Shown here: positions 5,453 to 58,274 of the stretch, piece by piece
Position numbering within the stretch: position 1 is the first letter of the stretch
How the letters are laid out: every line of letters starts with the position of its first letter
Assembly (NCBI RefSeq): GCF_003201815.1
Contig: NZ_QJKB01000004.1
Coordinates: 62,001-126,000, forward strand
Direction: 5' to 3'
DNA: 64,000 bases
Source: Undibacterium pigrum
GTDB taxonomy: Bacteria; Pseudomonadota; Gammaproteobacteria; Burkholderiales; Burkholderiaceae_D
Program-made: the position numbers and the translations under genes
Notes under the pieces: model-generated
The model's database searches: none
The model's input: only the letters and a program-made list of their open reading frames with translations
Told to the model about the DNA's origin: nothing

Positions 5453-5473
5453 ATTGTCTTTGCCGTAGTCAAA

Positions 5474-5501
5474 AAAAATCCACGCAAAAGCGTGGATTTT
5501 T
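5474..5501. terminator. Bidirectional terminator between xerD and the S9 peptidase gene
   Basis: A perfect 12-bp stem (AAAAATCCACGC with GCGTGGATTTTT) and a four-A loop. A-run and T-run flank it, so it can stop transcription from both convergent genes. Confidence 0.9.
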
Positions 5502-5518
5502 CATTGCAGCATCAGCAT

Positions 5519-7501
5519 TTATTTAACAGCGGTATTCTCATCCAGGAATTTTTCTACCCTGGTCCAGAAGTCGACGTTGTTTCTCAGCAGACGCCAGCCA
5601 TGGCCTTCTTCCTTGTAAGTGATCCATTCAATTTTGGCATTTGCAGGCGCTGCCTTTTTGAATTTTTCACCATGTATCAGAGGCACGCGTCTGTCAGCAA
5701 TACCATAGGCAAGTATCAAAGGCTTGGTCAGTCTGTGTGCTTGCTCAACAGGGGAAGTTGCTTTCAATTGTGCCGCATCTTTCTGCTGATCACCGATCAG
5801 GATAGGCATGCCATAACGTTGCCATGCGCTTCCGTCCTGGTCGCTCCAGGTAACGTCATACAGTAAATTAATATCAGATACACCTACCCAGCTAATACCG
5901 CAACGATATAGATCAGGGTCTTTGATCAAACCCATTAATACTGCGTAACCACCATAACTGGCACCAGCGATACAAACACGGTTGGCATCAGCATAGCCTT
6001 TTTCAATCGCCCATTTTGTGGCATCAGTAATGTCATCCTGCATGGCCAGGCCCCATTGCTTCCAGCCTGACTTGAAGAGGTTCTTGCCATAACCTTCGCT
6101 ACCACGGAAGTCTGGCTCCAGAACTGCATAGCCACGTGAAGCCAGGAATTGTGTTTGTGGATTCCAGCCCCAATTGCCGCCACGTACATAAGGTCCACCG
6201 TGAACCATGACTACCATAGGCAGGTTTTTACCCGTACTATTGCGTGGCAATGTGAGGTAAACCGGGATTTCCAAACCGTCACGTGCCTTGATACGGAAAA
6301 AATCCTTATAGGACATTTTCTTTGAATCTACTTCCGGCAAGCTGTCACCAATTGGGGTGAATTGCTCAGCCTTGGTGTCATACAAGAATATTGATCCAGG
6401 ATGAATGTCTGAGAAAGAAGTAACCAATACGACGCTACTGTCTTCGCCTTCAGCGATGGTCAGCGAATTGGACGTGTTTGGCAATTTTTCGTCGATTTTC
6501 TTTTGTATTGCCTTATATTTTTCATCAAACCACATCACGCCAGGCGCGTCAGTGTCATAGCGTATGCCTAACAGCTTGTTCTGTTTTCTATTGAAGATGA
6601 AGCGACCAGAAAAATCAAATCCCTTGGCTGAAATGACGGGTGTTGGATCTATGTTATTTTTTTCAAGATCATAACGATAGACGGACTTGGTATCTTGTCC
6701 CTGATTGGCCGTGACATAAAGCTGACCATCAGGTGCTATAAATGAAGGGAAAAAACCATCTTCTGTTCTATTGTTATACTCAATGAGCTTGCGCCATTGC
6801 TTGGTGTTCGGGTCTTTGTATTGTACGCCGCTGACATCATCCAGATTGGTCATGGCGATGCGCACTTCACCATTGATATCGCCCAGGAAGCCAGTAGAGT
6901 TAGGTGGCGTTTGTACGATTTCGTTATAGCCAGTCAGTGTATTGAGTTTGATAATGCTTATTGTCGGGTTTTGTCTTGTGCCGCTACCGTGGGCCACGAA
7001 TACATCATCCGAATTCTCTACACCTGTTGTACTGAGAAAATAATGACGGGGTCCCAGGACGCGAAACTTTCCTGAATGTCCTGCAGTTTCTATCAATTGA
7101 CGAAATTCCGAGCCATCTTTATTGACAGCAAACAATCCACTACCTTTATAGACCTCGCCTGCGCCCAGTTTTCTGTCGCCAATGCCAAATACCAGCCTGT
7201 TATTGTTAACCCAGGAAAAGAAGGTGACATCGCTTTTTTCATATTGCGCCACGATCTTGGGGGTACGGCTAGTCAGATCCATGATAGCCAGGTTCAATCT
7301 TTCATTCGAGCCTGCGGTGATCATCGCCAAATATTTACCATCCGGAGAAAAACGGATTTCATTGATTTGCGGATTCTTGAAAAACTTTTCTACCGGGATG
7401 CGCTCTGGTGTGTTTTGCGCATGTGCTGGCAATGTAAGACCGCTTGCAATAATTGCGCCGACTGAGATGCATCGGAACAGGGAAGTGAGCATTTGATTCA
7501 T
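5519..7501 (-). CDS. Secreted S9-family prolyl oligopeptidase-like peptidase (copy 1)
   Basis: A 660-residue serine peptidase of the S9 (acylaminoacyl/prolyl oligopeptidase) type, expected to trim short peptides in the periplasm. A Sec signal peptide ends at AHA (about residue 27). The middle is a beta-propeller, recognisable from its FSPDGKYLAM blade start. The C-terminal alpha/beta-hydrolase domain holds the catalytic triad: Ser515 in GASYGGY, Asp603 in IADRRVP and His634 in EEGHGW. The start was set at 7501 (Met-Asn-Gln-Met). The in-frame ATG at 7576 lies beyond a terminator for the upstream receptor gene; an ATG at 7513 is the alternative. It follows a TonB-receptor gene and is a close paralog of the peptidase at 17171-19168. 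Confidence 0.9.
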   Translation of the reverse strand: MNQMLTSLFRCISVGAIIASGLTLPAHAQNTPERIPVEKFFKNPQINEIRFSPDGKYLAMITAGSNERLNLAIMDLTSRTPKIVAQYEKSDVTFFSWVNNNRLVFGIGDRKLGAGEVYKGSGLFAVNKDGSEFRQLIETAGHSGKFRVLGPRHYFLSTTGVENSDDVFVAHGSGTRQNPTISIIKLNTLTGYNEIVQTPPNSTGFLGDINGEVRIAMTNLDDVSGVQYKDPNTKQWRKLIEYNNRTEDGFFPSFIAPDGQLYVTANQGQDTKSVYRYDLEKNNIDPTPVISAKGFDFSGRFIFNRKQNKLLGIRYDTDAPGVMWFDEKYKAIQKKIDEKLPNTSNSLTIAEGEDSSVVLVTSFSDIHPGSIFLYDTKAEQFTPIGDSLPEVDSKKMSYKDFFRIKARDGLEIPVYLTLPRNSTGKNLPMVVMVHGGPYVRGGNWGWNPQTQFLASRGYAVLEPDFRGSEGYGKNLFKSGWKQWGLAMQDDITDATKWAIEKGYADANRVCIAGASYGGYAVLMGLIKDPDLYRCGISWVGVSDINLLYDVTWSDQDGSAWQRYGMPILIGDQQKDAAQLKATSPVEQAHRLTKPLILAYGIADRRVPLIHGEKFKKAAPANAKIEWITYKEEGHGWRLLRNNVDFWTRVEKFLDENTAVK

Positions 7502-7537
7502 TGATGTTCCCATGAAATTAAAATGAAAATAAGAAGC

Positions 7538-7573
7538 ACTAAAAATAAACGCCCCGAGTACGAGGCGTTTATT
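7538..7573 (-). terminator. Terminator of TonB receptor gene 1
   Basis: A perfect 10-bp stem (AATAAACGCC with GGCGTTTATT, 7544-7573) which on the minus strand is followed by TTTTTAG. It lies between the receptor stop (7594) and the peptidase start (7501), so the peptidase is either expressed by read-through or from its own promoter. Confidence 0.75.
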
Positions 7574-7593
7574 CATGTCATTATATTACCAGA

Positions 7594-10479
7594 TCAACGG
7601 AAAACGTATTTTGCCGACAATGTGAAGTAACGACCAGTGTTGTTATGCAAGGAAGTGTCATAACCTTGCTGAACAGTTGTGCTGGTATTTGATCCTGCAG
7701 CATATGGTGCTTTGGAATCAAAAATGTTTTTCACGTTGATGCCCAGAGTCAAATCCTTGAAGCCAGTGTAGTTGTAGCCCAGGTCAACAGTAGTCCAGCT
7801 GGCCATTTGGCAATCTGGGAAGTACTTGTTGTAGTTAGGCTGCAACTGGATCGAGGTTGCAGTTGCTGGCTGACCAGAACCAAAGTGGCAGTACGGTGTG
7901 GCGTATGTCGTTGTATTGTCATAACGGCGATACAGAGACACGCTGTCTGTGAATCTGACGCTGCCGTAGACAGTATGTGGACCTTTTTCCCATGAAGTGC
8001 TAAAACTTGCACGCAGACGTGGGATATTGCCAACTGAAGTTGCCCAGTCATTCAAGCCACCTTGTGTACCAACTGCATTTCTTTCGAGGTCGCCAATAAC
8101 TTCAGCACGACGATAAGAGAACAGGTAAGTACCACGCAGGGAAGATGTCAGCTTGCCATTTTCACCGAGGTTATTACGCATTTTCAGCTCAAGATCTGCA
8201 CCACTGGTTTCTGTTGCACCCTGGTTGATCCATGGTGTTTTAACAGCCAGCAATGGGCCAGTACCTGGGATAGGATTACCGTTGGCATCTTTCAACTGAT
8301 TGAGCGGATTGGTATCGCGCAAAATATAGTCAGCAGGGAAGTTGGCAGGGTGTTCCAGCAGGAATGTAGAGCTACTCAGGACAACAGAGCCTTCCTGACG
8401 CAATTTGTAAATATCCAAAACCACGTCGAAATTGCTGGTAGGTGAGTAGATCATGCCCAGAGAGTAGCTCTTGGATTTTTCTGGCTTCAGATCAGGATTT
8501 GCACCACCAACACCGGAAACGCTCTTGGAGCAATCAACCTGTTCTGCACCAGCAACAGGATTTGCACCATTAGGGCAGCGGATAGGATCAACTGTGCCGT
8601 TCAGGAAGAACTGTGCACCACCAGCAGCGGTTTGTGACAGGCCAGGAGCACGGAAGGCTTCAGCATAAGTACCACGGAATGCCAGACCATCTGTAACTGT
8701 CCATTTTGCACCGACTTTAGGTACGAAATTGCCTTTGATTTTTTCGTATTTGTCGTAACGGCCAGCAAAATCCATCTCAAAGTTTTTAAAGAATGGAGTG
8801 CGGAACTCGACAAATGCAGAAGAAACATTACGCTTGGAATTGATCGCTGTCGTTGTCAGGCCCAGAATGTCACCACGGGCATTGATAGGATCAGGATCGA
8901 TAGCCAGTTTTTCCTGACGCAATTCGAAACCAGCCGCAAAGCCGATAGCGCCACCACCGAGGGAACCAAATTCCGTCGATGCTTTACCATCCCATTGTGT
9001 GATTTCAGAGGTACCGATATTGGTCAGGTCAGGGCTGATAGTAGGATCAGCAGCGATCGAGGCCAGAGTACGGTTATCAGTAATCAGCTTGCGCAGTGTA
9101 GGCAAGTAGAGGAAACCATGCGCCACTTCATTACGCTTGGAACGGTTCCACAAAACAGCACTTTCCCAATCCCAGCTTGCGACACTGCCTCTCAGGCCTG
9201 CCAGCAAACGTGCACCCTTGTTGTCCAGGTCTGTACCGGTCAGCAGATTTTCAAAACGGTAAGAAACGGCAGAACGGGCATCCTTATTAGGATTGTCAGG
9301 GTGACCAATAGGCAAAATAGCCTGGAACGGTGCAGCCAGACCACCTACCAGGAAGTTGGTTGTTGGTGATGTACCGCTGATAGTACGGGCACCAGCACGG
9401 TAGGTACGTTTGGTTTCAGAGTATGCAAATTCTGCAAAGGCTGACAATTTGTCGTTAATTTTCAGATTACCGACGGACATGAAATTGATGTCATCACCTT
9501 TGCTTTGTACATCAGTAAATGCATCTGCATTGTAGTTACAGAAAGTACGGCCAAACAACACGCTGGACGACGCGATATTGTGTTGTGCACCACCAACCAG
9601 CAAGCGGGATGGATCGCAATTTGTCTGATTGATGACAGTGGCGCCAGTCGTGAAGAAGGACAGTGCGCCAGGAGTACGTTCTTTGTAGAAGAATGCCTGG
9701 TTAGAGATGCTGCTGCTATATGGATTCAGACGATAGTTAATATCTGAATACAGCTTGGCTTCGATATCATTGGAACCATTTTGTACCGTGGTCGCATTTT
9801 GTTTTTTATAGTCGACTGCGAACAACACGTTATAGCCCTGGCTGGCGAAGTCACCAAAACCTATCGTGCCATTAACATTTTGACGGCCGAATTCACGGTC
9901 ATCGTTGGCACTGATATTGGCACTGACTTCAGCGCCTTGATAATCACGTTTTGTAATGAAGTTGATAACGCCAGCAACCGCATCGGAACCATAAATAGCT
10001 GACGCGCCATCTTTGAAGATTTCAATTTTTTCGATAGCGGACAGAGGGATGGCATTCAGATCATACAGCGTTGATTGACCATTGTTTGGATTTGCATAGG
10101 CAGATGGTGCCATGCGACGGCCATTCAACAGTATCAGTGTAGATGTAGAACCCAGACCACGCAGGGATGCTGTAGCAACACCGCGGGAGAAACCATTTTG
10201 ATCGGGCGTATCGTTATAACCGCCTGTACCCATGGACGGTACTTGTTTCAACAACTCCAGCACCGTAGTTGCACCACTTTGCTTGATTTCTTTAGCGGTG
10301 ATGGTTTGTATCGGTGATGTACCTTCTTTATCAGCGCGTTTGATGTTCGAGCCGGTAATTTCAATACGTTGTGGTGCTTCAGTCTGAGCGTGGGCATAAC
10401 CCCCGATCAGCATGGAGCCAGCAAATACGCTGAGCGCCAGGCGCACTGACTGCACGCCTATTTTTTCTTTAAATATCAT
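7594..10479 (-). CDS. TonB-dependent outer-membrane receptor (copy 1), peptide-locus type
   Basis: A 961-residue outer-membrane receptor that imports a large ligand using TonB energy. The signal peptide ends at AHAQ (about residue 32). A TonB-box-like start (RIEITGSNIKR) and plug domain follow; the plug carries GASAIYGSDAVAGVINFI near residue 160. The rest is a long 22-strand-type barrel ending in a terminal aromatic (KYVFR). Receptors with the ITGSxIKR start are common in protein-degrading Gram-negative bacteria. Its partner is the S9 peptidase just downstream, and a near mirror image of the pair lies at 14.3-19.2 kb. Peptides or protein fragments are the likely ligand, inferred from context only. 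Confidence 0.9.
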   Translation of the reverse strand: MIFKEKIGVQSVRLALSVFAGSMLIGGYAHAQTEAPQRIEITGSNIKRADKEGTSPIQTITAKEIKQSGATTVLELLKQVPSMGTGGYNDTPDQNGFSRGVATASLRGLGSTSTLILLNGRRMAPSAYANPNNGQSTLYDLNAIPLSAIEKIEIFKDGASAIYGSDAVAGVINFITKRDYQGAEVSANISANDDREFGRQNVNGTIGFGDFASQGYNVLFAVDYKKQNATTVQNGSNDIEAKLYSDINYRLNPYSSSISNQAFFYKERTPGALSFFTTGATVINQTNCDPSRLLVGGAQHNIASSSVLFGRTFCNYNADAFTDVQSKGDDINFMSVGNLKINDKLSAFAEFAYSETKRTYRAGARTISGTSPTTNFLVGGLAAPFQAILPIGHPDNPNKDARSAVSYRFENLLTGTDLDNKGARLLAGLRGSVASWDWESAVLWNRSKRNEVAHGFLYLPTLRKLITDNRTLASIAADPTISPDLTNIGTSEITQWDGKASTEFGSLGGGAIGFAAGFELRQEKLAIDPDPINARGDILGLTTTAINSKRNVSSAFVEFRTPFFKNFEMDFAGRYDKYEKIKGNFVPKVGAKWTVTDGLAFRGTYAEAFRAPGLSQTAAGGAQFFLNGTVDPIRCPNGANPVAGAEQVDCSKSVSGVGGANPDLKPEKSKSYSLGMIYSPTSNFDVVLDIYKLRQEGSVVLSSSTFLLEHPANFPADYILRDTNPLNQLKDANGNPIPGTGPLLAVKTPWINQGATETSGADLELKMRNNLGENGKLTSSLRGTYLFSYRRAEVIGDLERNAVGTQGGLNDWATSVGNIPRLRASFSTSWEKGPHTVYGSVRFTDSVSLYRRYDNTTTYATPYCHFGSGQPATATSIQLQPNYNKYFPDCQMASWTTVDLGYNYTGFKDLTLGINVKNIFDSKAPYAAGSNTSTTVQQGYDTSLHNNTGRYFTLSAKYVFR

Positions 10480-11092
10480 TATTGTTCCCTCTTTGTTGAT
10501 AGACCAGATGCAATCGGGTGCCGGATCCGTTTTGGCAGTCAGGGTAAAGTTGCAAAAATTTTGTGAATTTTCAAACTTTTCTGTGCTGCTGTCCGATGAG
10601 TTTTTACCAAATCTTTCTTCTCTTTATTTGCGTGGAAGAAATGAAAGGCAATGAATCAAACAGAACTTTATTATGTAAATAAAATACCCTCCGGGGAAAG
10701 CGTTTGTTACCAATTTCTGCTGTGCTGTTGTTTGATGGAGACAAGAAATGAAAATTTAATTTCTAAATTTTCATGAAATTGAGATTGTGTGATCGTTTTG
10801 CAAATCTATTTAATTCCATATAATTTATATGGATAAGCTTATAAAATTCAGAGAAAATGAACTATATGAACAGAAATTCCCTCAAATTCCGGGAGTTTGC
10901 TTATTTGTTGGTGGACAAAAAAATGCGAAAAAATTTTCAAATTTTGAGATTTCTGTAAAAATCGAGGCCACCAATAAGTTCCTGCAACTTGTAAGAACTT
11001 GTAACGGGAAAATCTGTCTACGACCTTAGTGAGTGCACGCCCAAATGAAAGCGGCATGTTTAACTATGTATATAATTAACCAGGAAAAATAT
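10480..11092. other. AT-rich divergent regulatory region between receptor 1 and metalloprotease
   Basis: No credible gene. It contains a 27-base palindrome (ATGAAAATTT, 7 bases, AAATTTTCAT; 10748-10774), a 17-base palindrome (CCATATA, ATT, TATATGG; 10816-10832) and a tandem direct repeat of AACTTGTAA (10986-10994 and 10996-11004) in phase with one helical turn. The repeat ends about 90 bases before the metalloprotease start. These look like regulator binding sites serving two divergent genes. The one open frame here (10829-11029) has no ribosome binding site or recognisable sequence. Confidence 0.5.
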
Positions 11093-13741
11093 ATGAAATT
11101 GCCAAAAGAAGTACATTTCAAGAAAAAGACCCTACTCCTTTTGTTGTGTGCCTTGAGTGAAGTCGCACTGGCGCAGACACCTCCTGCTGCAACGCCAGTT
11201 GCAACTAACGGTGCTACACCGGCGACACCTGCCGTTGCGCCAGTTGCAGCAGCTCCTGCGCCAGCTCCTGGACTGCGTCCATTCAAAGATATCATCAAGG
11301 ATGCGAAAGAGCTTAAGGGCTTTTTTAATCTGTATCAGAAAGACGACAAAGTCTGGATGGAAATCCGTCCTGAGCAATTTGATAAGCCTTTCCTGTTTAC
11401 TTATAATATTCCCAACAGCATAGGCGAGCGTGGTTTGTATGGCAGCCAGATGGGACGCGGTTATCAGGCGGTGTTCAAGAAAATTGGTAATCAGGTGCAA
11501 TTGCTGGCCATGAATACAGAATTCTATGCCAAGCCAGGTACACCTCAGGCGCTGGCAGTAGCCCAGGCTTTTTCAGACAGTTTGCTGGCGAGCGCGCCGG
11601 TACTGAGTTCTCCCAATAGTGAATCCAAAGGTATCCTGGTAGATGCCAGCACTTTGCTGTTCAATGATATTCCTGCTTACTCCACCAGGCTGGAATATGC
11701 TTACCGCACCATGTACGTGCTGGACCGGGCAAATTCCAGCTTTGGCAAATTGAGTACAGATGAGTCCCTGTCCGGATTTTTTGTGAATGCTCACTTTGCC
11801 ACGCCACGTATTGCTGCTGCGCCGCTGGTGCCACCACCAGTTGCTCTTCCTACTCCGCCACAGACAACCCCTGATCCACGTAGTTTCTTTGTTGGCTTTT
11901 ATTTCAATTTCTCTGCATTGCCAACTGAAGTCATGCGTCCGCGTCTGGCTGACGACAGGCTGGGACATTTCGTCACGACCAGTTACGATTTCACAGAAGA
12001 CGTCAAACCCAAGACTTCACGCCATTTCGTCAACCGCTGGCGTCTGGAAAAACAAGACCCGACCGCGGCCTTGTCAGAACCCAAACAGCCTATCGTTTAC
12101 TGGCTGGATAAAAACGTTCCAGAAAAATATCGCAAGTCCATTACTGAGGGTGTCCTGGAGTGGAATAAGGCATTTGAAAAGATAGGTTTTAAAAACGCCG
12201 TCGTCGCCAAACAGCAAACTGAAAAAGATAATTTCGACACCATGGATGCACGTCATGCATCGATACGCTGGTTCGTTGGCGCTGACGTAGGCTTTGCGAT
12301 TGGCCCTTCACGCGTCGATGAGCGCAGTGGTGAAATTCTGGATGCCGATATCGGTATGTCGGACGTCTTCGCCCGTGGCGCACGCCGCATGATCGGCGAG
12401 GATGCGCAAACAAATGCCATGTCCGGCCATGCTCATGGTGATTGTGATTTTGCCCATGAAGCTTCCATGGAAATGGGTTTTGCCATGGACTTGCTGGATG
12501 CCCGTGGTGAAGTTGATATGGATAGTCCTAAAGCTGAAGCACTTGCACAAGCCTATGTTAAAGACGTCATCATGCATGAAGTCGGCCATACTCTGGGTTT
12601 GCGTCACAACTTCCGCTCTTCCACCATTTACACCTTGAAGCAATTGCAAGATCCGGCGTTTACCAAGGTCAATGGCCTGGCCGGTTCCATCATGGATTAC
12701 GTGCCTTTCAATCTGGCAACCAAGGGTGAGCCTCAGGGCGAATATGTCATGTCTTCTCTTGGCCCGTATGACTATTGGGCAATTGAATACGCCTACAAAC
12801 CTGTCGATGCAGACAAGGAAAAAGAAGAGCTGGCCCGCATAGCCTCACGTTCTACCGAGCCTTTGCTGGCCTATGGTACCGACGAAGATTCCATGGGTAC
12901 CCTGGTGTCAGATCCTGATGTCAACGTGTTTGACCTGGGTTCAGATCCACTGGCCTATATCCAGAAACGCCTGACGATTTCACGCGAATTGTGGGATAGA
13001 TTGCAAACACGTCAGTTGAAAGCTGGTGACAGCTATGAGGGTCTGCGCCGTAGTTTTGAATATGGCTTCGGTCAGTTTGCCCGTACCGTGCCGCTGGCAA
13101 CCAAGTTTGTTGGTGGTACTACATTCTTGCGTGACCATGCTGGTACTGGACGTGCAACTTACACACCTATCGCCGCTGAGCGTCAGCGCCAGGCTTTGAA
13201 GCTGGTGTCCGATAGCTTGTTTACTGCCAAGAGCTTTGTCTTCTCGCCTGAACTGTTAAGCCGTATGGGTGTGGATCACTTCCAGCGTGGCAATCGTAAC
13301 GACATTTCCATTTCTGCCCGTTTGCTGGGTTTGCAAACAGCAGCACTGGATCAATTGATGTCAGATGTTGTGGCACAGCGTATGCTCAATACAGCAGAAA
13401 AACTGCGCGATCCTAAGAAAGTATTGTCCCTGCATGAGCTGTATGGCAATTTGCAATCGACTATCTGGAGTGAATTGTCCAGTGGGGCCGATATTGTTTC
13501 TGCGCGTCGCAACTTGCAACGCGAGCATCTGAAACGTTTATCCAATGCCTTGTTGAAGCCATCCGCGACAGCGCCGGCAGATGCCCGTAGTTTGCAAAGA
13601 GAGCAGGCAAACCAACTGTTGGTGGCAATTCGTGGCGCAGTAGGCAAGCCTATGAGCGCAGAGTCGCGCGCACATTTGTCAGAAAGCATGGCGACCTTGA
13701 ACGAAGTACTCAAGGCCTCACTGGTCAGGGCAGGGGTCTGA
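11093..13741 (+). CDS. Secreted zinc-dependent metalloprotease (DUF5117/DUF4953 family)
   Basis: An 882-residue predicted secreted metalloprotease. A Sec signal peptide (basic start, leucine run, cleavage after LAQ at about residue 28) is followed by an Ala/Pro-rich linker. The extended zinc site HEVGHTLGLRH begins at His495, with Glu496 as catalytic base and His499 and His505 as further ligands. A methionine follows about 30 residues later (SIMDYVP), as in metzincin Met-turns. The N-terminal and flanking regions match the DUF5117/DUF4953 protein type as I recall it. The start is at 11093 because of the signal peptide and an AGGAAA ribosome binding site. It sits between two TonB-receptor/S9-peptidase cassettes and probably makes the peptides they handle. 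Confidence 0.88.
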   Translation: MKLPKEVHFKKKTLLLLLCALSEVALAQTPPAATPVATNGATPATPAVAPVAAAPAPAPGLRPFKDIIKDAKELKGFFNLYQKDDKVWMEIRPEQFDKPFLFTYNIPNSIGERGLYGSQMGRGYQAVFKKIGNQVQLLAMNTEFYAKPGTPQALAVAQAFSDSLLASAPVLSSPNSESKGILVDASTLLFNDIPAYSTRLEYAYRTMYVLDRANSSFGKLSTDESLSGFFVNAHFATPRIAAAPLVPPPVALPTPPQTTPDPRSFFVGFYFNFSALPTEVMRPRLADDRLGHFVTTSYDFTEDVKPKTSRHFVNRWRLEKQDPTAALSEPKQPIVYWLDKNVPEKYRKSITEGVLEWNKAFEKIGFKNAVVAKQQTEKDNFDTMDARHASIRWFVGADVGFAIGPSRVDERSGEILDADIGMSDVFARGARRMIGEDAQTNAMSGHAHGDCDFAHEASMEMGFAMDLLDARGEVDMDSPKAEALAQAYVKDVIMHEVGHTLGLRHNFRSSTIYTLKQLQDPAFTKVNGLAGSIMDYVPFNLATKGEPQGEYVMSSLGPYDYWAIEYAYKPVDADKEKEELARIASRSTEPLLAYGTDEDSMGTLVSDPDVNVFDLGSDPLAYIQKRLTISRELWDRLQTRQLKAGDSYEGLRRSFEYGFGQFARTVPLATKFVGGTTFLRDHAGTGRATYTPIAAERQRQALKLVSDSLFTAKSFVFSPELLSRMGVDHFQRGNRNDISISARLLGLQTAALDQLMSDVVAQRMLNTAEKLRDPKKVLSLHELYGNLQSTIWSELSSGADIVSARRNLQREHLKRLSNALLKPSATAPADARSLQREQANQLLVAIRGAVGKPMSAESRAHLSESMATLNEVLKASLVRAGV

Positions 13742-13798
13742 TTGCCATAATGATGCTTATTATGTAAATTATTTGTTATTTAAAAAATAAGCTGACTT

Positions 13799-13834
13799 GC
13801 AAAAACCCGTGCATCGCACGGGTTTTTGCTTTTT
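13799..13834 (+). terminator. Terminator of the metalloprotease gene
   Basis: A perfect 14-bp stem (GCAAAAACCCGTGC with its complement, ATC loop) followed by TTTTT. Confidence 0.92.
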
Positions 13835-14298
13835 GGGTGCAGATGTTACAAATGCTTTCAGACGTAGTCGCGAGTTCCTTGTTCGGCCAAAAGTTCCCGC
13901 TTTGATACAAAAAAACAACAACATTAAATATATTTCGATACTTGTTTTCTATGCAATTTTTAAAAACATAATTCTGGCTATGAAGAAAATTCCATAAAAA
14001 ACATGTATTTTCCGGACTAAACGAAAACAATATTCCCAATTTTCAAAAATGGCAGGTGTAGTGTCTGGGACTCATTAAGAAAAACTAAACAAGTTACATA
14101 ATGTCACAGTTCATAATCATTGTTCTTTCAAAGAACCTTATGTTTTTGTAAGCAAATTTATCTGGTGAAGCAAGGGAGACCATCGGTTTTTTCGGATAAA
14201 ACTGATTACCGTGCCAAATAAAATTTGCGTAAAAATGTTGCACTACTGTTCCTGGAAGTTCGCGCTTGCATTGAAAAATTAAAATAGAAAGGTAATTC
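13835..14298. other. AT-rich promoter region of TonB receptor gene 2
   Basis: No gene is seen. It contains a 15-base palindrome, GTTCTTT, C, AAAGAAC (14122-14136), about 165 bases before the receptor start, which may be an operator. An ACAAGTT (14089-14095) is the reverse complement of part of the AACTTGTAA repeats upstream of the metalloprotease; a shared regulator is possible but one half-site is weak evidence. Confidence 0.4.
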
Positions 14299-17046
14299 AT
14301 GAAGCTGAGTCGTCTCGCATTTGCATTGTCCAGCATAGGTTTGTTCTCCATCGCCACTGGCGTATTGGCACAAGTGACCACCCCAGAGGATGAAAAGAAA
14401 TCAGAAAAAATCCAGAAGGTGGAAGTGACTGGTTCAAAAATTAAGCGTATCAACTACGAAACTGCATCCCCGGTACAAGTCATTGGCCGTGATGAAATCG
14501 CTCGTGGTGGTGCTACTTCCCTGACAGAAGTATTAAAAACTATTTCTTCCAACCTCGGCGGGGTTGATGAAAACCGTACCAATGGTTTTACCGCTGGTGC
14601 ATCCGGCCTGAACCTGCGTGGTATCGGTAGCCAGGCAACACTGGTGCTGATCAACGGTCGTCGCCTTGCTGCTTATGCGCAACCAGAATATCAAACGACT
14701 TTCGTTGATTTGAACTCTGTACCGGTTGGTGCAGTTGATCGCATCGAAATCCTGAAAGATGGCGCGTCGGCGATTTACGGTTCTGAAGCGATGGCCGGTG
14801 TTGTTAACATCATCTTGCGTGACAGTTTTGTGGGGGCAGAAATCAGCGGATCCTATGCGCAATCACAAAAAAATGACGGCGAACAAATCCGTACCAGCCT
14901 GAGCTATGGTTTTGGTAGCCTGGTTGAAGATCACTTTAACGTCTATGCAACTCTGGATATTCGTCAGCGCAAACCGATGTTTATCAGCAAGCGCGATAGT
15001 TACCTGAGCACAGAAGATCTGCGTCCTTATGGCTACAAAGACAATCGCTCACTGTACACATTCCCAGGCAATATTTACTGGACTGATAAGGCCACAGGCA
15101 AATTTGTTTCACAAACACTGGACAAAAATTGCGCACCGCAGAACCTGGTTCCAGCCGAGCCTTTCTTTGGTGCCGGCACAGTGGGTAACGTCTGCGTATT
15201 CGATGATTTGAAAGATGCCTCCGTCAACTCTGGCGGTAAAACTGACCGTGTTGGCCTGACCAGCCGCGGTACATGGCAAATCAATGCAGACACCAGCGCA
15301 TTTGCAGAAATCATGTACAACCAGAACAAGGCGACTGTAACAGGCGTACCACACTGGCTTGCAGGTCAGACTGGCCAGCCAACAGGACCCTTGCCAATCA
15401 CCCACCCACAATACCCTAAAGAGTTGATCGATCCAGTGACTGGCAAGACGCTGGCAGGCGGTAACGGCACTGTACGTGTCCGCGCTTCCCTGAAAGATTT
15501 CCCAGGCCAGGGTCTGGAAAATACGACAGATTTCGGTCGTTATCTGGCAGGCTTGAAAGGTACGTATTCAAACTGGGATTGGGAATCTGCGCTGATGTTC
15601 AACACCAGCAAAGTTGAGTCCAAAGCAACAGCCGGTATTTTGTCCAAGCCTTTTATCGAAGCCTACAATAACGGTACTTTCCTGTTTGGTAGCTCGGCAC
15701 AAAATGCTGAACTGTACAAGAAAATCGTGACTGGCTCTTCCGATAACTTTAAATCCGGCATGTATATGTGGGATGCCAAGGTATCTGGCGAAGTGATGCA
15801 GTTGCCTGCTGGCCCTATGTCTGTCGCGATTGGTGCAGAAGTCCGCCGTGAAACTCTGGAAGTGAATCCATCTCAGTTGTCTATCGATGGTGAGTTGTAT
15901 CACCGTGCGCAAGCTCAGCCAGGCTATAAACGCGGTCGTAATATTGCGTCTACCTATGCTGAATTGTCTGTACCTATCTTCAAAACACTGGAAGGTCAGA
16001 TCGCAGCACGTTATGACCGTTATTCCGACTATGGTAATTCAACAACACCAAAAGTCGGCATTAAATGGAATGCAGATCCAACTTTGCTGGTACGCGGTAC
16101 TTATGCAACTGGTTTCCGTGCACCGACACTGGTAGAAAACTCTTCTCAGATCTTGAAAGCTTTCTTGTCTTATCGTGATCCAGAGCGTTGCAACGATAAA
16201 TTCAAGAATGGTTGCCAATGGAGCAGTGCTTACGAAAGTGGTTCCAATCCTAACCTGAAACCAGAAACTGCAGACAGTTTCACTATGGGTGTGGTCTGGG
16301 AGCCAACATCCTGGCTGAATGCCAGCCTGGACTTCTGGCAAATCAAGCGTAAGGATGAAATCTCTACATTTGATCTGACTACTGTTCTGGCAAATCCTGG
16401 TCGCTATGCGGGCAACTCTGCAGTAGTGATTACTCGTGACGCTTTGAGTGCGGCTGATAAAACAGCAGGTGCGACTGCTGGTGAAATCACCAATCTCAGA
16501 TTGTTGCTGACTAACGTGGCGACAACACAAGTTCGCGGCGTTGATCTCGACATCAATACCAAGTTCAATCTGGGTGAATATGGTCGTATCTCACCAAATC
16601 TGAAAGTGACTTATAACCACTCTTATAAATCAGCTCCTTCACCAGAAGCAGAAGCAATTGAATACGCAGGTTCGCGTAATCAACCGCGCGTCACTGCGAC
16701 TGCAGGCATAGGCTGGGAAAAAGCAGCATGGAGAGCATCTCTGGACGCAGTACATGTCGGCCATATGTCTTCCAATGGTGACTTTACACAACCATGCGTA
16801 TTCGAAACTCAGGGTTATGCGAACTTGTGTAAGGATATCCCATCCTTCACGACCTTCAACCTGGGTGGCAGCTACACTGGTTTGGTGAAAGACTTGAAAC
16901 TGAGCTTCGCGATCAGGAACGTATTTGATCGTATGCCTCCGTTTGCTCCAAGTGCTACATCAACACAAGCTGTTGCAGCATTGACTGGCTTGCATGATGT
17001 GATTGGTCGTTACTTCCAGATCACTGTAGATTACAAATTCAAGTAA
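14299..17046 (+). CDS. TonB-dependent outer-membrane receptor (copy 2), peptide-locus type
   Basis: A 915-residue outer-membrane receptor, paralogous to the one at 7594-10479. The signal peptide ends at VLAQ (about residue 25). Then come the TonB-box-like KVEVTGSKIKR, the plug with LNLRGIGSQATLVLINGRR and GASAIYGSEAMAGVVNIIL, and a barrel ending in VDYKFK. Two cysteine-containing loops (NCAPQ/NVCVF and RCNDKFKNGC) suggest disulfide-stapled extracellular loops. An AAAGGTAATTC ribosome binding site precedes the ATG. A terminator separates it from the S9 peptidase that follows. Ligand unknown; peptides are the contextual guess. Confidence 0.9.
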   Translation: MKLSRLAFALSSIGLFSIATGVLAQVTTPEDEKKSEKIQKVEVTGSKIKRINYETASPVQVIGRDEIARGGATSLTEVLKTISSNLGGVDENRTNGFTAGASGLNLRGIGSQATLVLINGRRLAAYAQPEYQTTFVDLNSVPVGAVDRIEILKDGASAIYGSEAMAGVVNIILRDSFVGAEISGSYAQSQKNDGEQIRTSLSYGFGSLVEDHFNVYATLDIRQRKPMFISKRDSYLSTEDLRPYGYKDNRSLYTFPGNIYWTDKATGKFVSQTLDKNCAPQNLVPAEPFFGAGTVGNVCVFDDLKDASVNSGGKTDRVGLTSRGTWQINADTSAFAEIMYNQNKATVTGVPHWLAGQTGQPTGPLPITHPQYPKELIDPVTGKTLAGGNGTVRVRASLKDFPGQGLENTTDFGRYLAGLKGTYSNWDWESALMFNTSKVESKATAGILSKPFIEAYNNGTFLFGSSAQNAELYKKIVTGSSDNFKSGMYMWDAKVSGEVMQLPAGPMSVAIGAEVRRETLEVNPSQLSIDGELYHRAQAQPGYKRGRNIASTYAELSVPIFKTLEGQIAARYDRYSDYGNSTTPKVGIKWNADPTLLVRGTYATGFRAPTLVENSSQILKAFLSYRDPERCNDKFKNGCQWSSAYESGSNPNLKPETADSFTMGVVWEPTSWLNASLDFWQIKRKDEISTFDLTTVLANPGRYAGNSAVVITRDALSAADKTAGATAGEITNLRLLLTNVATTQVRGVDLDINTKFNLGEYGRISPNLKVTYNHSYKSAPSPEAEAIEYAGSRNQPRVTATAGIGWEKAAWRASLDAVHVGHMSSNGDFTQPCVFETQGYANLCKDIPSFTTFNLGGSYTGLVKDLKLSFAIRNVFDRMPPFAPSATSTQAVAALTGLHDVIGRYFQITVDYKFK

Positions 17047-17059
17047 TCTCGTGAACTGA

Positions 17060-17097
17060 TAAGTGCCGGAATTTTCTATTCCGGCACTTATTTTTTT
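17060..17097 (+). terminator. Terminator of TonB receptor gene 2
   Basis: A perfect 13-bp stem (TAAGTGCCGGAAT with its complement, TTTCT loop) followed by seven T. It overlaps an in-frame upstream ATG of the next gene (17063), which excludes that start. Confidence 0.93.
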
Positions 17098-17170
17098 ATC
17101 TGCTCGCTTTCTACACGATGGCGATATAAAAATTATAGTGATAAAAACAGATACTTCAGAGGGACATATT

Positions 17171-19168
17171 GTGAAAAAACACATATTCAAGACAGTACTT
17201 GCCGGCATGTTATGTGCCGCAAGTGCAGTGAGTTTGCCTGCTTATGCAGACAAATCTATTCCGGTCGCAGATTTTTTTAAAAAAGCACAATTCAGTGGAC
17301 GGCCAGTTTTATCCCCTGATGGCCAGAGCATGGCTGTACTGACTCCGCGCAATGGTCGTTTTGTCCTGGCGATCATCCGCCTTGATTCACGCAAGCCCAG
17401 AGTCATTGCTTCAGATCCGGACTATGACATCGTTGCTCCTCAATGGATCAACGACAATCGCCTGGTATTTAGTTTAAGTCGTGGCAGTGATGTCGTGATG
17501 GAAGACAATGATGGCGGTGGTTTGTTTGCGGTTAATAGCGATGGCTCGGCCTTTCGCAAACTGGTGCCAACCAGAAAAGAAGCACGCGGCGGCAATATCG
17601 CTTACAAACCGTTTTCAGTATTGTCCCGCACTTTTGATGGCACGAACGACCTGATCGTGGTCAACAATCAGCGTGGCAGAGATACCAAATTAGGGGCATC
17701 TGATGTATTGCGCCTTGATACGGTTTCTGGCAGAACCAAGCTCCTGACTTTTGATAACCCTGGCAAGATAGGTGATTGGGTACTTGATCAGAATAATGTT
17801 ATTCGTGTTGGCGTATCAGCCAGTGTAGATCCGGATAATAAGCGTATCAAGCAGACTGTGTATTACCGCGACGCTGAAGGTGCGCCGTGGAAAGTCATTC
17901 ATCAGGCTTACATGGATGAGGGCAAGGAAATGCATCCACTGGGCTTTGACTTCGACAACAAGACTATGCTGGTAGCGGGCCGCTTCAACGGGCGTGACAA
18001 GATGGCCGTGCATATCTGGGATTTTGATAAGCAAGCCGCAGGTGAGATCATCGCAGATCATCCTGATGTTGATGTGGCAAGCTTTTCGACAGACCGTTCA
18101 CGCAAAAAATTGCTTGGTTCAGTTGTTGACGCAATGAAGCCAGAAATCATATTTTTTGATGACGACTATGCCAAGATGCAGGCAACTCTGAAGGCAAGTT
18201 TCCCAGGACAGGAAGTTTCTTTCCAGTGGAGCGGGAAAAATGTCGTTGTCTTCGTGCGTGGTGATAATCATGTTGGCGCTGTCTATTTTTATGACACTGA
18301 CAAAAAAGTCATGGAACCAGTGTATGTCGTCAAGCCAGAACTGGAAGGCAAGAAATTATCTGCACAAACAGTCATCAAATACAAGGCACGCGATGGCCTG
18401 GATATTCCCGCTTACCTGACTTTGCCTGAGGGTACTCCAGCGAAAAACCTGCCTCTGGTAGCGTACATTCATGGTGGGCCACATGCACGCGACCAGCATG
18501 GCTATGATCCTATGACGCAAATGCTCGCATCGCGTGGTTATGCCGTCTTGCAGCCGCAATTCCGCATGTCTACCGGTTTTGGCTGGAAACATCATACGGC
18601 TGGCTGGAAGCAATGGGGTCTTGCCATGCAGGATGACATTACCGACGGCATAGAAAATCTGGTCAAGCAAGGTATCGTTGACAAGAATCGTGTGTGCATT
18701 ATTGGTGCCAGTTATGGCGGTTATGCCACTATGTACGGTTTGGTCAAAGATCCTGATCTGTATAAATGCGGCGTTAACTGGGTGGGTGTAACAGACGTTA
18801 AGATGTTGTTCACGGTGAACTGGTCAGATATGTCTGGTCCTGTCATGGACAACATCGGCGCAAAAATGCATGGTGATCCTAAAACCGATGATGCCTATTT
18901 CCAGAAAGTGTCGGCAATAGAAAACGCCAGCAAGATCAAGGCACCTGTGCTGATGGCTTATGGTAGTGAGGATATACGTGTACCCCTGATCCATGGTGAA
19001 AAAATGCGCGACAAATTGAAAGCGCAAGGCAACACGGTGGAGTGGATGGTGTTTCCTGGTGAGGGACATGGCTGGGCGAAAGAAAGTAATAACATCTTGT
19101 GGGGTGAATCTGTCCTGCGCTTCATCGATAAATATATTGGTGATAGCTCTCCTGCAGCAAAAAAATAA
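17171..19168 (+). CDS. Secreted S9-family prolyl oligopeptidase-like peptidase (copy 2)
   Basis: A 665-residue paralog of the peptidase at 5519-7501, strongly alike across the hydrolase domain (both contain AMQDDITD, NRVCI, GASYGGYA, KDPDLY and WVGV). The signal peptide ends at AYA. A propeller domain precedes the catalytic triad: Ser514 (GASYGGY), Asp601 (SEDIRVP) and His633 (GEGHGW). The GTG start at 17171 has an AGAGGGA ribosome binding site six bases upstream, while longer frames begin inside the preceding terminator. It probably works in the periplasm on peptides brought in by the neighbouring receptor. Confidence 0.91.
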   Translation: MKKHIFKTVLAGMLCAASAVSLPAYADKSIPVADFFKKAQFSGRPVLSPDGQSMAVLTPRNGRFVLAIIRLDSRKPRVIASDPDYDIVAPQWINDNRLVFSLSRGSDVVMEDNDGGGLFAVNSDGSAFRKLVPTRKEARGGNIAYKPFSVLSRTFDGTNDLIVVNNQRGRDTKLGASDVLRLDTVSGRTKLLTFDNPGKIGDWVLDQNNVIRVGVSASVDPDNKRIKQTVYYRDAEGAPWKVIHQAYMDEGKEMHPLGFDFDNKTMLVAGRFNGRDKMAVHIWDFDKQAAGEIIADHPDVDVASFSTDRSRKKLLGSVVDAMKPEIIFFDDDYAKMQATLKASFPGQEVSFQWSGKNVVVFVRGDNHVGAVYFYDTDKKVMEPVYVVKPELEGKKLSAQTVIKYKARDGLDIPAYLTLPEGTPAKNLPLVAYIHGGPHARDQHGYDPMTQMLASRGYAVLQPQFRMSTGFGWKHHTAGWKQWGLAMQDDITDGIENLVKQGIVDKNRVCIIGASYGGYATMYGLVKDPDLYKCGVNWVGVTDVKMLFTVNWSDMSGPVMDNIGAKMHGDPKTDDAYFQKVSAIENASKIKAPVLMAYGSEDIRVPLIHGEKMRDKLKAQGNTVEWMVFPGEGHGWAKESNNILWGESVLRFIDKYIGDSSPAAKK

Positions 19169-19202
19169 TAGTCATGAGCTAAAGTGATTTAGCATTAAAT
19201 TG

Positions 19203-19233
19203 AAAACCGACAAGTTCGCTTGTCGGTTTTTTT
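19203..19233 (+). terminator. Terminator of S9 peptidase gene 2
   Basis: A perfect 12-bp stem AAAACCGACAAG with its complement, a TTCG tetraloop, then a T run. Confidence 0.92.
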
Positions 19234-19333
19234 ATGGCGAGTGCTCAAATTATGCAAGTTCGTCCCCTGAGGCTATAATTTACAGAGGCTTTACAGCCGC
19301 AGTTTTCGCAAATCCCGTTTTTGAGAGTGTAAT

Positions 19334-22319: not shown

Positions 22320-22988
22320 ATGCGCAGCAAAGCAAATAATGACGATGCGATAACATCAGCTGGCCTCAGTCTGCGGATCGTGGTCGTGAATACCGTTATC
22401 CAGAGCGAGGATGAATTGCATGAGGACTCTCAGGCGCAACTGGCGCGTTCACGTGCCTTGCGCATAGGCTTGCTGCAAGCGGGTTATAACATCATCGCTG
22501 TCATCCCCGGTGACATCTATATGAGTGAGCGCATCACCCAGTTACAGCCGGACATGATCATCATCGATGCAGAATCTGATTCGCGCGATGTGCTTGAACA
22601 CATGGTTATGCTGACACGTGATGCACCACGCCCCATCGTCTTGTTCACTGAAGATGGTAGCCAAACCAATATGGCGGCAGCCATGGAAGCCGGTGTTTCT
22701 GCCTACGTAGTTGCCGGTTTGCAGTCAGAGCGCATCAAGCCTGTGCTGGATGTTGCCATGGCACGCTTCAATGCCGATCAAAAGCTGCGCAGTGAATTGT
22801 CTGATACCAAGGCCAAGCTGCAAGAGCGCAAGACCATAGAGCGTGCCAAGGGCTTGTTGATGGAGCGACATCATTTGTCAGAAAACGAGGCCTATCAAAA
22901 AATGCGTAAGCAAGCCATGGAAAAAAACCTCAAGCTGGTTGATCTGGCCCAGCGCATGCTGGACGTGGCGGATTTGCTGGGCGGCTGA
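22320..22988 (+). CDS. nasT: ANTAR-domain response regulator NasT (transcription antiterminator)
   Basis: A 222-residue protein with an N-terminal receiver-like domain (about residues 18-140; RIVVVNT, DMIIIDAESDSRD and PIVLFTEDG) and a C-terminal RNA-binding ANTAR domain (about residues 155-220; ERKTIERAKGLLMERHHLSENEAYQKMRKQAM). ANTAR proteins bind twin hexaloop hairpins in leader RNA and prevent termination. Such an RNA lies directly downstream, before nrtA, so this is NasT of nitrate assimilation. The receiver domain looks atypical. Its usual partner NasS, a cytoplasmic nitrate sensor, is not in the window. Confidence 0.9.
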   Translation: MRSKANNDDAITSAGLSLRIVVVNTVIQSEDELHEDSQAQLARSRALRIGLLQAGYNIIAVIPGDIYMSERITQLQPDMIIIDAESDSRDVLEHMVMLTRDAPRPIVLFTEDGSQTNMAAAMEAGVSAYVVAGLQSERIKPVLDVAMARFNADQKLRSELSDTKAKLQERKTIERAKGLLMERHHLSENEAYQKMRKQAMEKNLKLVDLAQRMLDVADLLGG

Positions 22989-23264: not shown

Positions 23265-24548
23265 ATGTTGAATCAGGAAGCTTCTCACAATCTCATCAAG
23301 ACGCAGGAAGAAAATGAACCTAATTTCAAACGTCGCAGTTTCTTGCAAACTGCTGCACTGGCAAGCGGGGCGGGCATCATGGGTTTGAGCACAGGTGGGG
23401 TATGGGCTGCAGGATCAGACAAGCCAGAAAAGGAAGAAGTCAACATAGGCTTCATCCCGCTGACGGATTGCGCATCCGTAGTCATGGCGTCTGTACTGGG
23501 TTTCGACAAAAAATACGGTATCAAGATCATACCCAGCAAAGAATCTTCCTGGGCCAGTGTGCGCGACAAACTGGTCAATGGCGAACTGGATGCTGCCCAT
23601 GTGCTGTATGGCCTGATTTATGGTGTGCAACTGGGCATAGGTGGCAATAAAAAAGACATGGCCGTGTTGATGACACTGAACAATAATGGTCAGGCAATCA
23701 CCCTGTCTAAAAAGCTGGCAGAGAAGGGCGCAGTTGACGGCGCTGGCCTGGCCAGGCTCATGCAAACTGATAAGCGTGAATACACTTTTGCCCAGACTTT
23801 CCCCACGGGCACACATGCCATGTGGTTGTATTACTGGCTGGCAGCAAATGGCATCAATCCCCTGAAAGATGCCAAGGTCATCACCGTGCCGCCACCGCAA
23901 ATGGTGGCCAACATGCGGGTAGGCAATATGGATGGTTATTGTGTAGGTGAACCCTGGAATCACCGGGCGATTGCCGATGGCATAGGTATCACCGCAGCAA
24001 CGACACAGGATATCTGGAAAGACCATCCAGAAAAAGTATTGGGGACCACATCTGAATTCGCACAGAAGTATCCGAATACGGCACGCGCTGTTGTTGCAGC
24101 CATCCTCGATGCCAGCCGCTGGATAGATGCATCCCTGTCCAACAAGACCAAGATGGCAGAAACCATCGCCGATAAATCCTATGTGAATACCTCGGTTGAT
24201 GTCATCAATCAGCGCATTTTGGGGCGATATCAAAATGGTCTGGGCAAGACCTGGGATGACCCCAACTACATGAAGTTCTTTAATGATGGAGCGGTGAATT
24301 TCCCTTATCTCTCAGATGGTATGTGGTTCCTGACCCAGCATAAGCGCTGGGGTTTGCTGAAGACAGATCCAGATTATCTGGCGGTGGCAAAAGCCGTCAA
24401 CCGCATTGACATTTATAAGGATGCGGCGACGCTGGCTAAAGTGTCGGTGCCCAAAGACCCCATACGCAGCAGCAAGTTGATGGATGGTACGGTGTGGGAT
24501 GGCAAGAATCCGGCTGCCTATGCAGCTTCTTTCAAAATCAAGGCTTAA
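23265..24548 (+). CDS. nrtA: Nitrate ABC transporter substrate-binding protein (NrtA/NasF)
   Basis: A 427-residue periplasmic protein of the CmpA/NrtA family that binds nitrate (or nitrite) for ABC uptake. A twin-arginine signal is clear (FKRRSFLQTAAL, then a hydrophobic stretch and cleavage after WAA at about residue 45). The family start VNIGFIPLTDCASVVMA follows, then NGELDAAHVLYGLIYGVQLGIGG and VGNMDGYCVGEPWNHRA. CTGGAG precedes the ATG. It is the first gene of nrtABD under the sigma-54/ANTAR leader. The Tat signal separates it from NasS, its cytoplasmic relative. Confidence 0.93.
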   Translation: MLNQEASHNLIKTQEENEPNFKRRSFLQTAALASGAGIMGLSTGGVWAAGSDKPEKEEVNIGFIPLTDCASVVMASVLGFDKKYGIKIIPSKESSWASVRDKLVNGELDAAHVLYGLIYGVQLGIGGNKKDMAVLMTLNNNGQAITLSKKLAEKGAVDGAGLARLMQTDKREYTFAQTFPTGTHAMWLYYWLAANGINPLKDAKVITVPPPQMVANMRVGNMDGYCVGEPWNHRAIADGIGITAATTQDIWKDHPEKVLGTTSEFAQKYPNTARAVVAAILDASRWIDASLSNKTKMAETIADKSYVNTSVDVINQRILGRYQNGLGKTWDDPNYMKFFNDGAVNFPYLSDGMWFLTQHKRWGLLKTDPDYLAVAKAVNRIDIYKDAATLAKVSVPKDPIRSSKLMDGTVWDGKNPAAYAASFKIKA

Positions 24549-24557
24549 GGAGTGGTG

Positions 24558-31377: not shown

Positions 31378-31440
31378 TTGATGCGTGACTTTAAGCGTAA
31401 CTGATTTGCAGGGAAATTTCAGGGCAAACGGGAGAGCATT

Positions 31441-32715: not shown

Positions 32716-32723
32716 GGTAATCC

Positions 32724-55312: not shown

Positions 55313-55326
55313 AGGCTCAACAAAGC

Positions 55327-58127: not shown

Positions 58128-58274
58128 ATCCCGGTGATTGATGCAGGAAAAGACAAGCGGACCTATGGTTTGAGCATTCCCTGCGGTTATATGTCATCGG
58201 TAAGTATTCATTGGCAGGCACAGGTGACTCACCCTATGCTGCCGATATGAAAAACTCAGTTGTGTGGAGCCTTT

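Follow-up and report, generated by a model that had tools for sequence, protein, structure and literature searches.

Receptor-peptidase gene pairs and a metalloprotease gene in the variable xerD-ybaK slot of Undibacterium pigrum

The window analysed here, a stretch of 64,000 nucleotides from Undibacterium pigrum, contains between xerD and ybaK a slot whose receptor and peptidase content varies among related bacteria. The reading that we consider rather probable is that the slot holds two two-gene cassettes, each with a TonB-dependent receptor gene followed by the gene for a secreted S9C-like peptidase, as well as a separate metzincin, that the two peptidases are not sisters, and that each cassette is matched to its ligand. 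TonB receptors provide one of the chief entry routes across the Gram-negative outer membrane, and the ligands of most of them are not known. A receptor that is inherited with one dedicated peptidase would provide a handle on the ligand, since the substrate of the enzyme should equal the cargo of the receptor.

Gene content of the slot

The gap between xerD and ybaK spans positions 5453..19333 (about 13.9 kb). The first-pass annotation had placed five genes here, two receptor-peptidase pairs and a metalloprotease; the five ORFs were found at the same coordinates and on the same strands, and their Pfam domains agree with the assignment. Pair a is located on the minus strand and consists of TBDR-a (7594..10479) and S9a (longest ORF 5519-7576; likely start ATG 7501, for a gene at 5519..7501). 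The metalloprotease ORF (11033-13741, plus strand) has its likely start at ATG 11093, marked by a conserved AACCAGGA box and the ATG, which gives a gene at 11093..13741. Pair b, also on the plus strand, consists of TBDR-b (14299..17046) and S9b (ORF 17063-19168; likely start GTG 17171, preceded by an AGAGGGA box, for a gene at 17171..19168). For both S9 genes, the alternative start that gives a longer ORF falls inside or before a terminator-like hairpin. The two pairs point apart and the metalloprotease faces pair b, and the mirrored arrangement described earlier therefore holds for the pairs only. Inspected by eye, the N-termini of all five proteins read as Sec-like, with a charged start, a hydrophobic stretch and an A-x-A motif, in line with the signal peptides proposed for them.

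Both receptors, identified from their ORFs, domains and tree positions, score above the Pfam cut-offs for the plug and the TonB barrel, with export judged by eye. Their top NCBIfam matches were models of heme and siderophore receptors, below cut-off. S9a and S9b are S9C-like serine peptidases of 660 and 665 amino acids with predicted signal peptides from the starts given above. The Peptidase_S9 domain was confirmed by Pfam in S9b and in S9a (PF00326, 1.8e-39), and the catalytic domain with Ser-Asp-His and the N-terminal propeller place the enzymes in peptidase family S9 (prolyl oligopeptidase family). The active-site Ser, Asp and His are all present in S9a, and the columns for the GASYGGY Ser, the Asp and the GHGW His were invariant in the 9 sequences aligned.

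The metalloprotease has the full DUF5118-DUF5117-DUF4953 'Met-zincin' domain set (Pfam). It carries the HEVGHTLGLRHN zinc motif, an instance of HExxHxxGxxH, and the Met-turn, and H495, E496, H499, H505 and M534 were invariant in 33 aligned sequences. Searches for solved relatives yielded none below E 0.2 by sequence and none below E 0.001 by fold, using a model with a pLDDT of 82.

In total, the genome contains 26 S9-domain matches and 54 plug domains, and S9a and S9b are the only S9 genes that adjoin a receptor gene (coordinates compared by eye). Within one contig, the next closest S9 and plug genes were separated by 4.8 kb (C13) and 6.1 kb (C2), and two further ORFs lay in between (L195, L197). 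The receptor-S9 adjacency of both pairs is not due to chance.

Distribution and inheritance of the pairs and the metalloprotease

Among 43 Undibacterium species genomes, the slot was empty in 16, contained receptor cassettes of differing make-up in 18 and other genes in 3, and occurred in two versions in one (G035, 9% contaminated), while the remaining 5 were not placeable; these states, like the hairpin scores below, depend on ORF calling, and two of the genomes are 73% (G019) and 70% (G024) complete. In the 16 species with an empty slot the xerD-ybaK gap measured -231 to 181 bp, and a search of these stretches with wider profiles detected neither receptors nor S9s. Receptors without an S9 occupy the slot in G041 and G011 (two receptors in the latter), and unrelated genes do so in G014, G015 and G006. 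Parsimony on a flank tree of 34 species, with nine of the 43 genomes left out, required a minimum of 4 changes to explain pair a, of 5 to explain pair b and of 12 to explain all states. The synteny check proposed with the first-pass annotation went against it, in that the metalloprotease is not kept with the pairs and the five-gene form occurs in 5 of the 43 genomes (G000, which is the genome studied here, G042, G010, G028 and, split over contigs, G025). Pair b is also found in 3 other genera, and outside the genus receptor and S9 have stayed adjacent at loci other than the slot (L169-L171); at L176 a receptor likewise lies beside an S9.

Comparing the near-identical species G020 and G021, nine genes outside pair a, the metalloprotease included, were 95.8-100% identical (97-100% for the metalloprotease and the flanks) vs 58.4% for TBDR-a and 58.9% for S9a. 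Because both of its genes are only 58-59% alike while the surroundings are near-identical, pair a has been replaced as a unit. This natural swap offers ready-made alleles for studies of receptor-enzyme matching. The distances in the receptor and S9 trees were correlated for pair a (r 0.89, n 12) and pair b (r 0.84, n 15; permutation p 1e-4 for each) in Mantel tests that covered only the placed pairs and in which shared species history adds to the correlation. Adjacency in many species, correlated trees and joint replacement uphold the earlier view of each receptor and its own S9 as a unit. The pairing is nevertheless not obligatory, because a receptor was located within about 1.5 kb at only 7 of the 30 S9 loci from a family search, and a paralogue of TBDR-a in this genome (L184) has no adjoining S9.

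The two pairs had been called paralogous and attributed to duplication with divergence. Paralogy applies at the family level only, with values of 36% for S9a/S9b and 30% for TBDR-a/TBDR-b. A single clade of S9a and S9b was rejected (AU p 0.005) in a test on 59 of the 64 rows (three S9s of this genome and two long rows were omitted), and with it a local duplication of the S9s. In the S9 tree, a quick tree inferred after removal of duplicate family loci, the branch joining S9a to lone S9s had an SH-aLRT value of 88. For the receptors, the single clade was not rejected (AU p 0.14), and TBDR-b scored higher against receptors elsewhere in its own genome than against TBDR-a.

A close homologue of the metalloprotease is located outside the slot in 4 Undibacterium genomes (in the one that was scanned, its neighbours are genes for an S49 peptidase and an S1/P1 nuclease), and pair b is present in 7 Undibacterium genomes without a close metalloprotease homologue. 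Outside the genus there were 75 homologous loci, only 29 of them flanked by some 10 kb of sequence on each side; within the available sequence, a receptor was found in 8, an S9 in 8 and both in 2, using a wide receptor profile that recovers 21 of 21 own-genome receptors. At the gene density of this genome, 10.5 receptors were expected, and 10 S9 genes were seen vs about 5 expected. The metalloprotease had been presented as a required part of the system; we rejected it as such, both pairs being found without it and vice versa, and read it here as a neighbour that mostly goes its own way and not as a cassette member. The counter-examples are the Limnohabitans-type loci L026 and L028, where two S9 genes and a receptor gene lie within 10 kb of the metalloprotease homologue and which count in favour of the first-pass annotation. 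Their S9s, however, belong to another type, the prolyl-oligopeptidase type with PF02897, and over part of their length are 23-27% like S9a and S9b. At L029 and L030, two related short contigs, an S9 lies near the metalloprotease homologue.

Hairpins and upstream regions

Intrinsic-terminator-like hairpins are located between TBDR-a and S9a (7543..7574, minus strand; 14-bp stem followed by a T-run; -19.7 kcal/mol, z -6.1), between TBDR-b and S9b (17058..17092, plus strand; 15-bp stem; -23 kcal/mol, z -9.6) and 3' of the metalloprotease (13799..13829, plus strand; 14-bp stem; -23.8 kcal/mol, z -6.0). No Rfam family matched positions 1-30000 of the window at gathering score. A score of at least 21 was reached between receptor and S9 in 22 of 30 pairs vs 3 of 1,200 shuffles. 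The hairpin was missing or weak in the other 8, namely the TBx-S9x pairs of G020, G021 and G023, two of three other-genus pairs, G019, G037 and pair b of G010, in whose alignment a stem is nevertheless visible, its loop being longer. Alignments for covariation comprised only members with a scored hairpin. In pair b (11 of 15 members), 8 of 15 base pairs had changed on both sides, and the covariation score exceeded all 500 shuffles and all slides, with a number of pair types no higher than in shuffled alignments (268/500). The pair-a hairpin was aligned in 11 of 12 members, the twelfth (G037) scoring only 15; it hardly varies and its covariation is weak, 59 of 500 shuffles being as high.

There are three separate upstream regions, those of TBDR-a, the metalloprotease and TBDR-b. 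The first two lie in the divergent intergenic region (10480..11092), which contains blocks conserved among six species. Upstream of TBDR-b, the dyad GTNACANNNTGTNAC (14093..14107, plus strand) is a candidate pair-b operator that can be recognised in 8 of the 10 genomes aligned, the window included; allowing one mismatch, the bare pattern occurs 3 times in the window vs 1.5 expected and is not rare there. A matrix was built from eight TBDR-b sites, and its 22.6 bits at the site in the window itself follow from the construction. Its best match upstream of the metalloprotease scored 7.9 bits (rank 11 in the window; 14.6 in L011), and no comparable site emerged upstream of TBDR-a. With this matrix, no operator of like strength common to the five genes was found. 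Co-regulation of the five, as in the first-pass annotation, is not supported by these separate upstream regions, by the terminator-like hairpins after the metalloprotease and within each pair, or by the operator search. The string 'TTACATAAT' is common to the TBDR-a and TBDR-b upstream regions and too short for any claim.

Peptide-like import followed by periplasmic cutting, as first proposed, is still the natural reading of the receptor and S9 families. We infer that the receptor may import a specific peptide-like ligand and that its partner S9, with its predicted Sec signal, would cleave this ligand in the periplasm. Given a terminator 3' of the receptor gene, transcription would extend into the peptidase gene only in part, or only under a certain condition, and partial read-through could yield receptor in excess of enzyme. 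Joint inheritance and replacement would be expected if receptor and enzyme must both match one ligand. The internal hairpin is a testable regulatory element.

Alternative readings and known systems

The five genes had been described as one complete protein-use system, in which the metalloprotease digests proteins outside the cell and two duplicated pairs import and trim two classes of peptides. Such integration would agree with the joint presence of the genes in five genomes, four of which (G000, G042, G010, G028) form one flank-tree clade with G020 and G021, with the intact metzincin residues, with a type II secretin in the genome as a possible export route, and with L026, L028, L029 and L030 as an independent instance of such genes lying together. 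We consider it quite unlikely. Pairs and metalloprotease also occur apart, a terminator follows the metalloprotease gene, no operator of like strength common to the genes was found, the S9 clade test rejects duplication, and G020 and G021 have a different, inverted pair in place of pair b; moreover, the S9s of L026 and L028 are of another type, and receptors at the outside loci are no more frequent than expected. Quite improbable, too, is a hot spot that gathers TonB receptors for any ligand (iron, heme, sugar), with the S9 as a generic periplasmic scavenger without a functional tie. The heme and siderophore models and the slots with lone receptors or unrelated genes point that way; the joint replacement of receptor and S9, their correlated trees and the adjacency kept at other loci in other genera argue against it.

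A rather unlikely alternative is that each pair, in the manner of lasso isopeptidase-receptor pairs, takes up a specific peptide natural product (lasso-like or otherwise cyclic) and then linearises or inactivates it, and that swaps track the ligands of competitors. The lasso isopeptidase model was one of the two best NCBIfam matches for both S9s (88.7 bits for S9b, 54.3 bits for S9a), and cassette swapping would fit pressure from ligands or attackers. Neither S9 reached the Atxe2 lasso isopeptidase equivalog cut-off of 400 bits, however, the Dpp5 model scored them about as high, and the lasso B protein was ruled out for this genome, in which PF13471 had no match. That the slot is a site where matched receptor-peptidase cassettes specialised on specific foreign peptide natural products are exchanged, and that the conserved terminator in each cassette works as a switch which adds the enzyme to the receptor once ligand is present, strikes us as unlikely. 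Anti-phage defence was rejected, with a single match of 17.7 bits. The reading that we prefer remains that of two ligand-matched cassettes beside a separate metzincin.

Titles and abstract openings in the open-access literature contained no description of such cassettes, no open-access paper on DUF5117, DUF5118 or DUF4953 was found, and the part of PMC3409153 consulted held nothing on linkage. The layout of an S9 gene next to a TonB receptor gene is the same as in lasso isopeptidase clusters of the AtxE2 and SpI-IsoP type, as described in the consulted parts of PMC9266682 and PMC11006600. The pairs differ from these clusters in that the receptor gene precedes the S9 gene instead of following it, a hairpin separates the two, the S9s are far under the family cut-off, and inspection of the slot ORFs by eye revealed no GntR or sigma/anti-sigma genes.

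By sequence and fold, the latter from a middling S9b model (pLDDT 69) used for the overall fold only, the closest solved relatives are S9C acylaminoacyl peptidases and S9 carboxypeptidases (5l8s, 8wt1), from which the S9s here differ in being only 17-19% identical over the fold alignment and in having a predicted Sec signal and a receptor partner. The metalloprotease shares domains and motif with the zinc-dependent DUF4953/DUF5117 family, and nothing unusual was noticed. In the RagAB/SusCD systems of Bacteroidota, TonB-driven peptide uptake is tied to proteolysis. No SusD/RagB-like ORF was seen by eye between the genes here, and the two receptors score 51.9 and 43.4 bits against the SusC/RagA model TIGR04056, vs a cut-off of 368.25; what the slot would have in common with these systems is the idea of TonB-driven peptide uptake linked with proteolysis.

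Contents of the xerD-ybaK slot

The five genes of the first-pass annotation were all found as described by ORF and Pfam analyses, and their arrangement is real: a TonB receptor and an S9 peptidase on the minus strand (pair a; TBDR-a, 7594-10479; S9a, 5519-7501), a DUF5118-DUF5117-DUF4953 metzincin (11093-13741, plus strand) and a second receptor and peptidase on the plus strand (pair b; TBDR-b, 14299-17046; S9b, 17171-19168). They lie in the xerD-ybaK gap (5453-19333) on contig 4 of an Undibacterium genome (G000). The standout feature is this slot, with its exchangeable, jointly inherited receptor-peptidase cassettes that have a terminator-like hairpin inside. The proposal that the genes form one integrated system for extracellular protein use was unsupported by synteny in relatives, yet similar company is kept in one other lineage.

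We located ybaK in 40 of 43 Undibacterium genomes and read the xerD-ybaK gap. The slot was empty in 16 (G001, G003, G004, G007, G008, G012, G017, G018, G024, G026, G027, G029, G031, G032, G034, G036; xerD to ybaK -231 to 181 bp), contained other genes in three (G014, G015, G006), had two versions, pair a and other genes, in one contaminated assembly (G035), and was not placed in five (G019, G022, G033, G038, G039). Receptor cassettes occupied the remaining 18. Pair a was the only content in G002, G016 and G037, and receptor a was seen with no S9 in G041 and, at a contig end, in G030. Pair b was the only pair in G005, G009 and G013, the last also carrying a receptor-a remnant; in G040 it was accompanied by an inverted receptor. 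G011 had two receptors but no S9. Pair a, metalloprotease and pair b occurred together in G000, G042, G010, G028 and, divided between contigs, G025. G020 and G021 had pair a, the metalloprotease and a different inverted receptor-S9 pair, x, and G023 had pair x and a metalloprotease remnant. Mapped onto a 34-species tree of flank genes, the minimum number of changes was 4 for pair a, 5 for pair b and 12 for all states, whereas presence of any receptor required only 2 at least; the slot is thus occupied in few lineages, within which its contents change often. By eye, the genes that fill the slot in one species, G006 (L144 3749-8796), include a bacteriocin-type peptidase/ABC transporter.

Receptor-peptidase pairs as units

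Seven genomes contain pair b and no close metalloprotease homologue; four of these (G009, G013, G016, G040) have none at all, while G005, G019 and G024 have homologues of about 30-34% identity (the G019 and G024 assemblies are incomplete). In G016 and G024 pair b is located away from the slot. Three further genera of the family have it too (G157, G160, G162; S9 identity 68-71%), with the receptor directly upstream of the S9 and no metalloprotease nearby in the stretch examined. Pair a has no neighbouring metalloprotease in G002, G016, G037 and G035, the last with one elsewhere. G020 and G021 share 95.8-100% identity in dctM, ogt, xerD, the metalloprotease, both x genes, ybaK, plsY and cache, but only 58.4% in TBDR-a and 58.9% in S9a, so pair a was replaced as a whole, its two genes swapped together. 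Receptor and S9 distances were correlated (r 0.84 for pair b, 0.89 for pair a), for which shared species history accounts in part.

A hairpin with a T-run lies downstream of the metalloprotease (13799-13829, -23.8 kcal/mol), and two more separate TBDR-b from S9b (17058-17092, -23 kcal/mol) and TBDR-a from S9a (7574-7543, -19.7 kcal/mol), each with a folding energy that beat 200 of 200 shuffles. By a single scoring rule, scores of at least 21 were obtained for 22 of 30 receptor-S9 gaps versus 3 of 1,200 shuffled gaps. The pair b stems had both-sided changes at 8 of 15 base pairs, and the pair a stems hardly varied. No conserved promoter was apparent in the alignment between hairpin and S9 start. 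The TBDR-b upstream region contains a dyad for which no comparably strong site was found ahead of the metalloprotease or TBDR-a.

Identity is 36% between S9a and S9b and 30% between the receptors. G000 has 26 S9-domain matches and 54 plug domains; judged from coordinates, only S9a and S9b adjoin a receptor. In both, the active-site residues are intact (Ser in GASYGGY, Asp, His in GHGW) and Pfam detected no prolyl-oligopeptidase N-terminal domain (PF02897). The predicted model of S9b resembles S9C acylaminoacyl peptidases and S9 carboxypeptidases, in agreement with the sequence search. S9b and the pair-b enzymes of other genera make up one clade of the S9 tree, and S9a joins S9s that were mostly observed singly or in tandem (SH-aLRT 88). 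Forcing S9a and S9b together cost 77 log units (AU p 0.0047, 59 rows); for the receptors the same test gave 4.2 log units (p 0.14). Scored against TBDR-b, relatives elsewhere in the genome reached 467 bits versus 328 bits for TBDR-a. In the receptor tree, G021's divergent TBDR-a allele clusters with a close TBDR-a paralogue that has no S9 neighbour (L184, G000 C2:26926-29760). Another genus of the family (G043, L167 4282-15011) has five tandem S9 genes, beside which neither receptor profile found a receptor.

The metalloprotease elsewhere

The metzincin motif is intact, and the nearest named match among those listed is from U. umbellatum (94%). DUF4953 matches twice in G000, once here at 273.6 bits and once weakly, at 31.8 bits. 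The genome also encodes a type II secretin, which makes secretion a possible route of export. In G014, G015 (partial), G026 and G035, homologues of 70-76% identity are located away from the slot; that of G035 adjoins an S49 peptidase and an S1/P1 nuclease, and neighbouring ORFs in the other three are similar in size.

A genome scan gave at least 80 metalloprotease loci, five matching Undibacterium genomes (L011, L012, L013, L015, L016) and 75 others. Of these 75 listed loci, five showed receptor-like stretches in a first tblastn and one an S9-like stretch. Wider profiles placed receptors in eight listed loci (L026, L028, L037, L044, L046, L059, L061, L074) and S9s in eight (L020, L026, L028, L029, L030, L064, L077, L081), with both in two (L026, L028). 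At the density of G000, the 1.24 Mb of listed loci should contain 10.5 receptors and 5 S9 genes; 8 and 10 were seen. L028 has the order S9, inverted receptor, second S9, metalloprotease. The S9 company in that lineage may thus exceed chance, and L026/L028 are possibly an independent case of similar gene company. In this Limnohabitans-type lineage (L028 1243-12484, L026 3-11127) the metalloprotease is downstream of two prolyl-oligopeptidase-type S9s and an inverted TonB receptor; both L028 S9s carry PF02897. Matches of about 5.2 kb in L025, L051, L066 and L071 suggest tandem double copies.

Other loci and described systems

Judged by eye from translations, the region 52015-62092 resembles a locus for muropeptide recycling: its genes read as MurQ, a LysR regulator, an amidase, a sugar kinase, an AmpG-like transporter and desuccinylase-like, peptide-binding and beta-lactamase-like proteins. 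Also by eye, genes for a PrkA-type kinase and for YeaH-like and SpoVR-like proteins share one orientation at 29422-34265, and a nitrate-type ABC transporter set (23265-26272) is preceded by an ANTAR-type regulator (22320-22988).

The two S9s score 86 and 75 bits, far under the Dpp5 cut-off of 900 bits. Lasso isopeptidase clusters encode an S9 enzyme next to a TonB receptor (PMC9266682, PMC11006600). No lasso B protein was found in G000, and S9a and S9b fall far under the lasso isopeptidase family cut-off; these clusters are the nearest described case found of neighbouring S9 and TonB-receptor genes.
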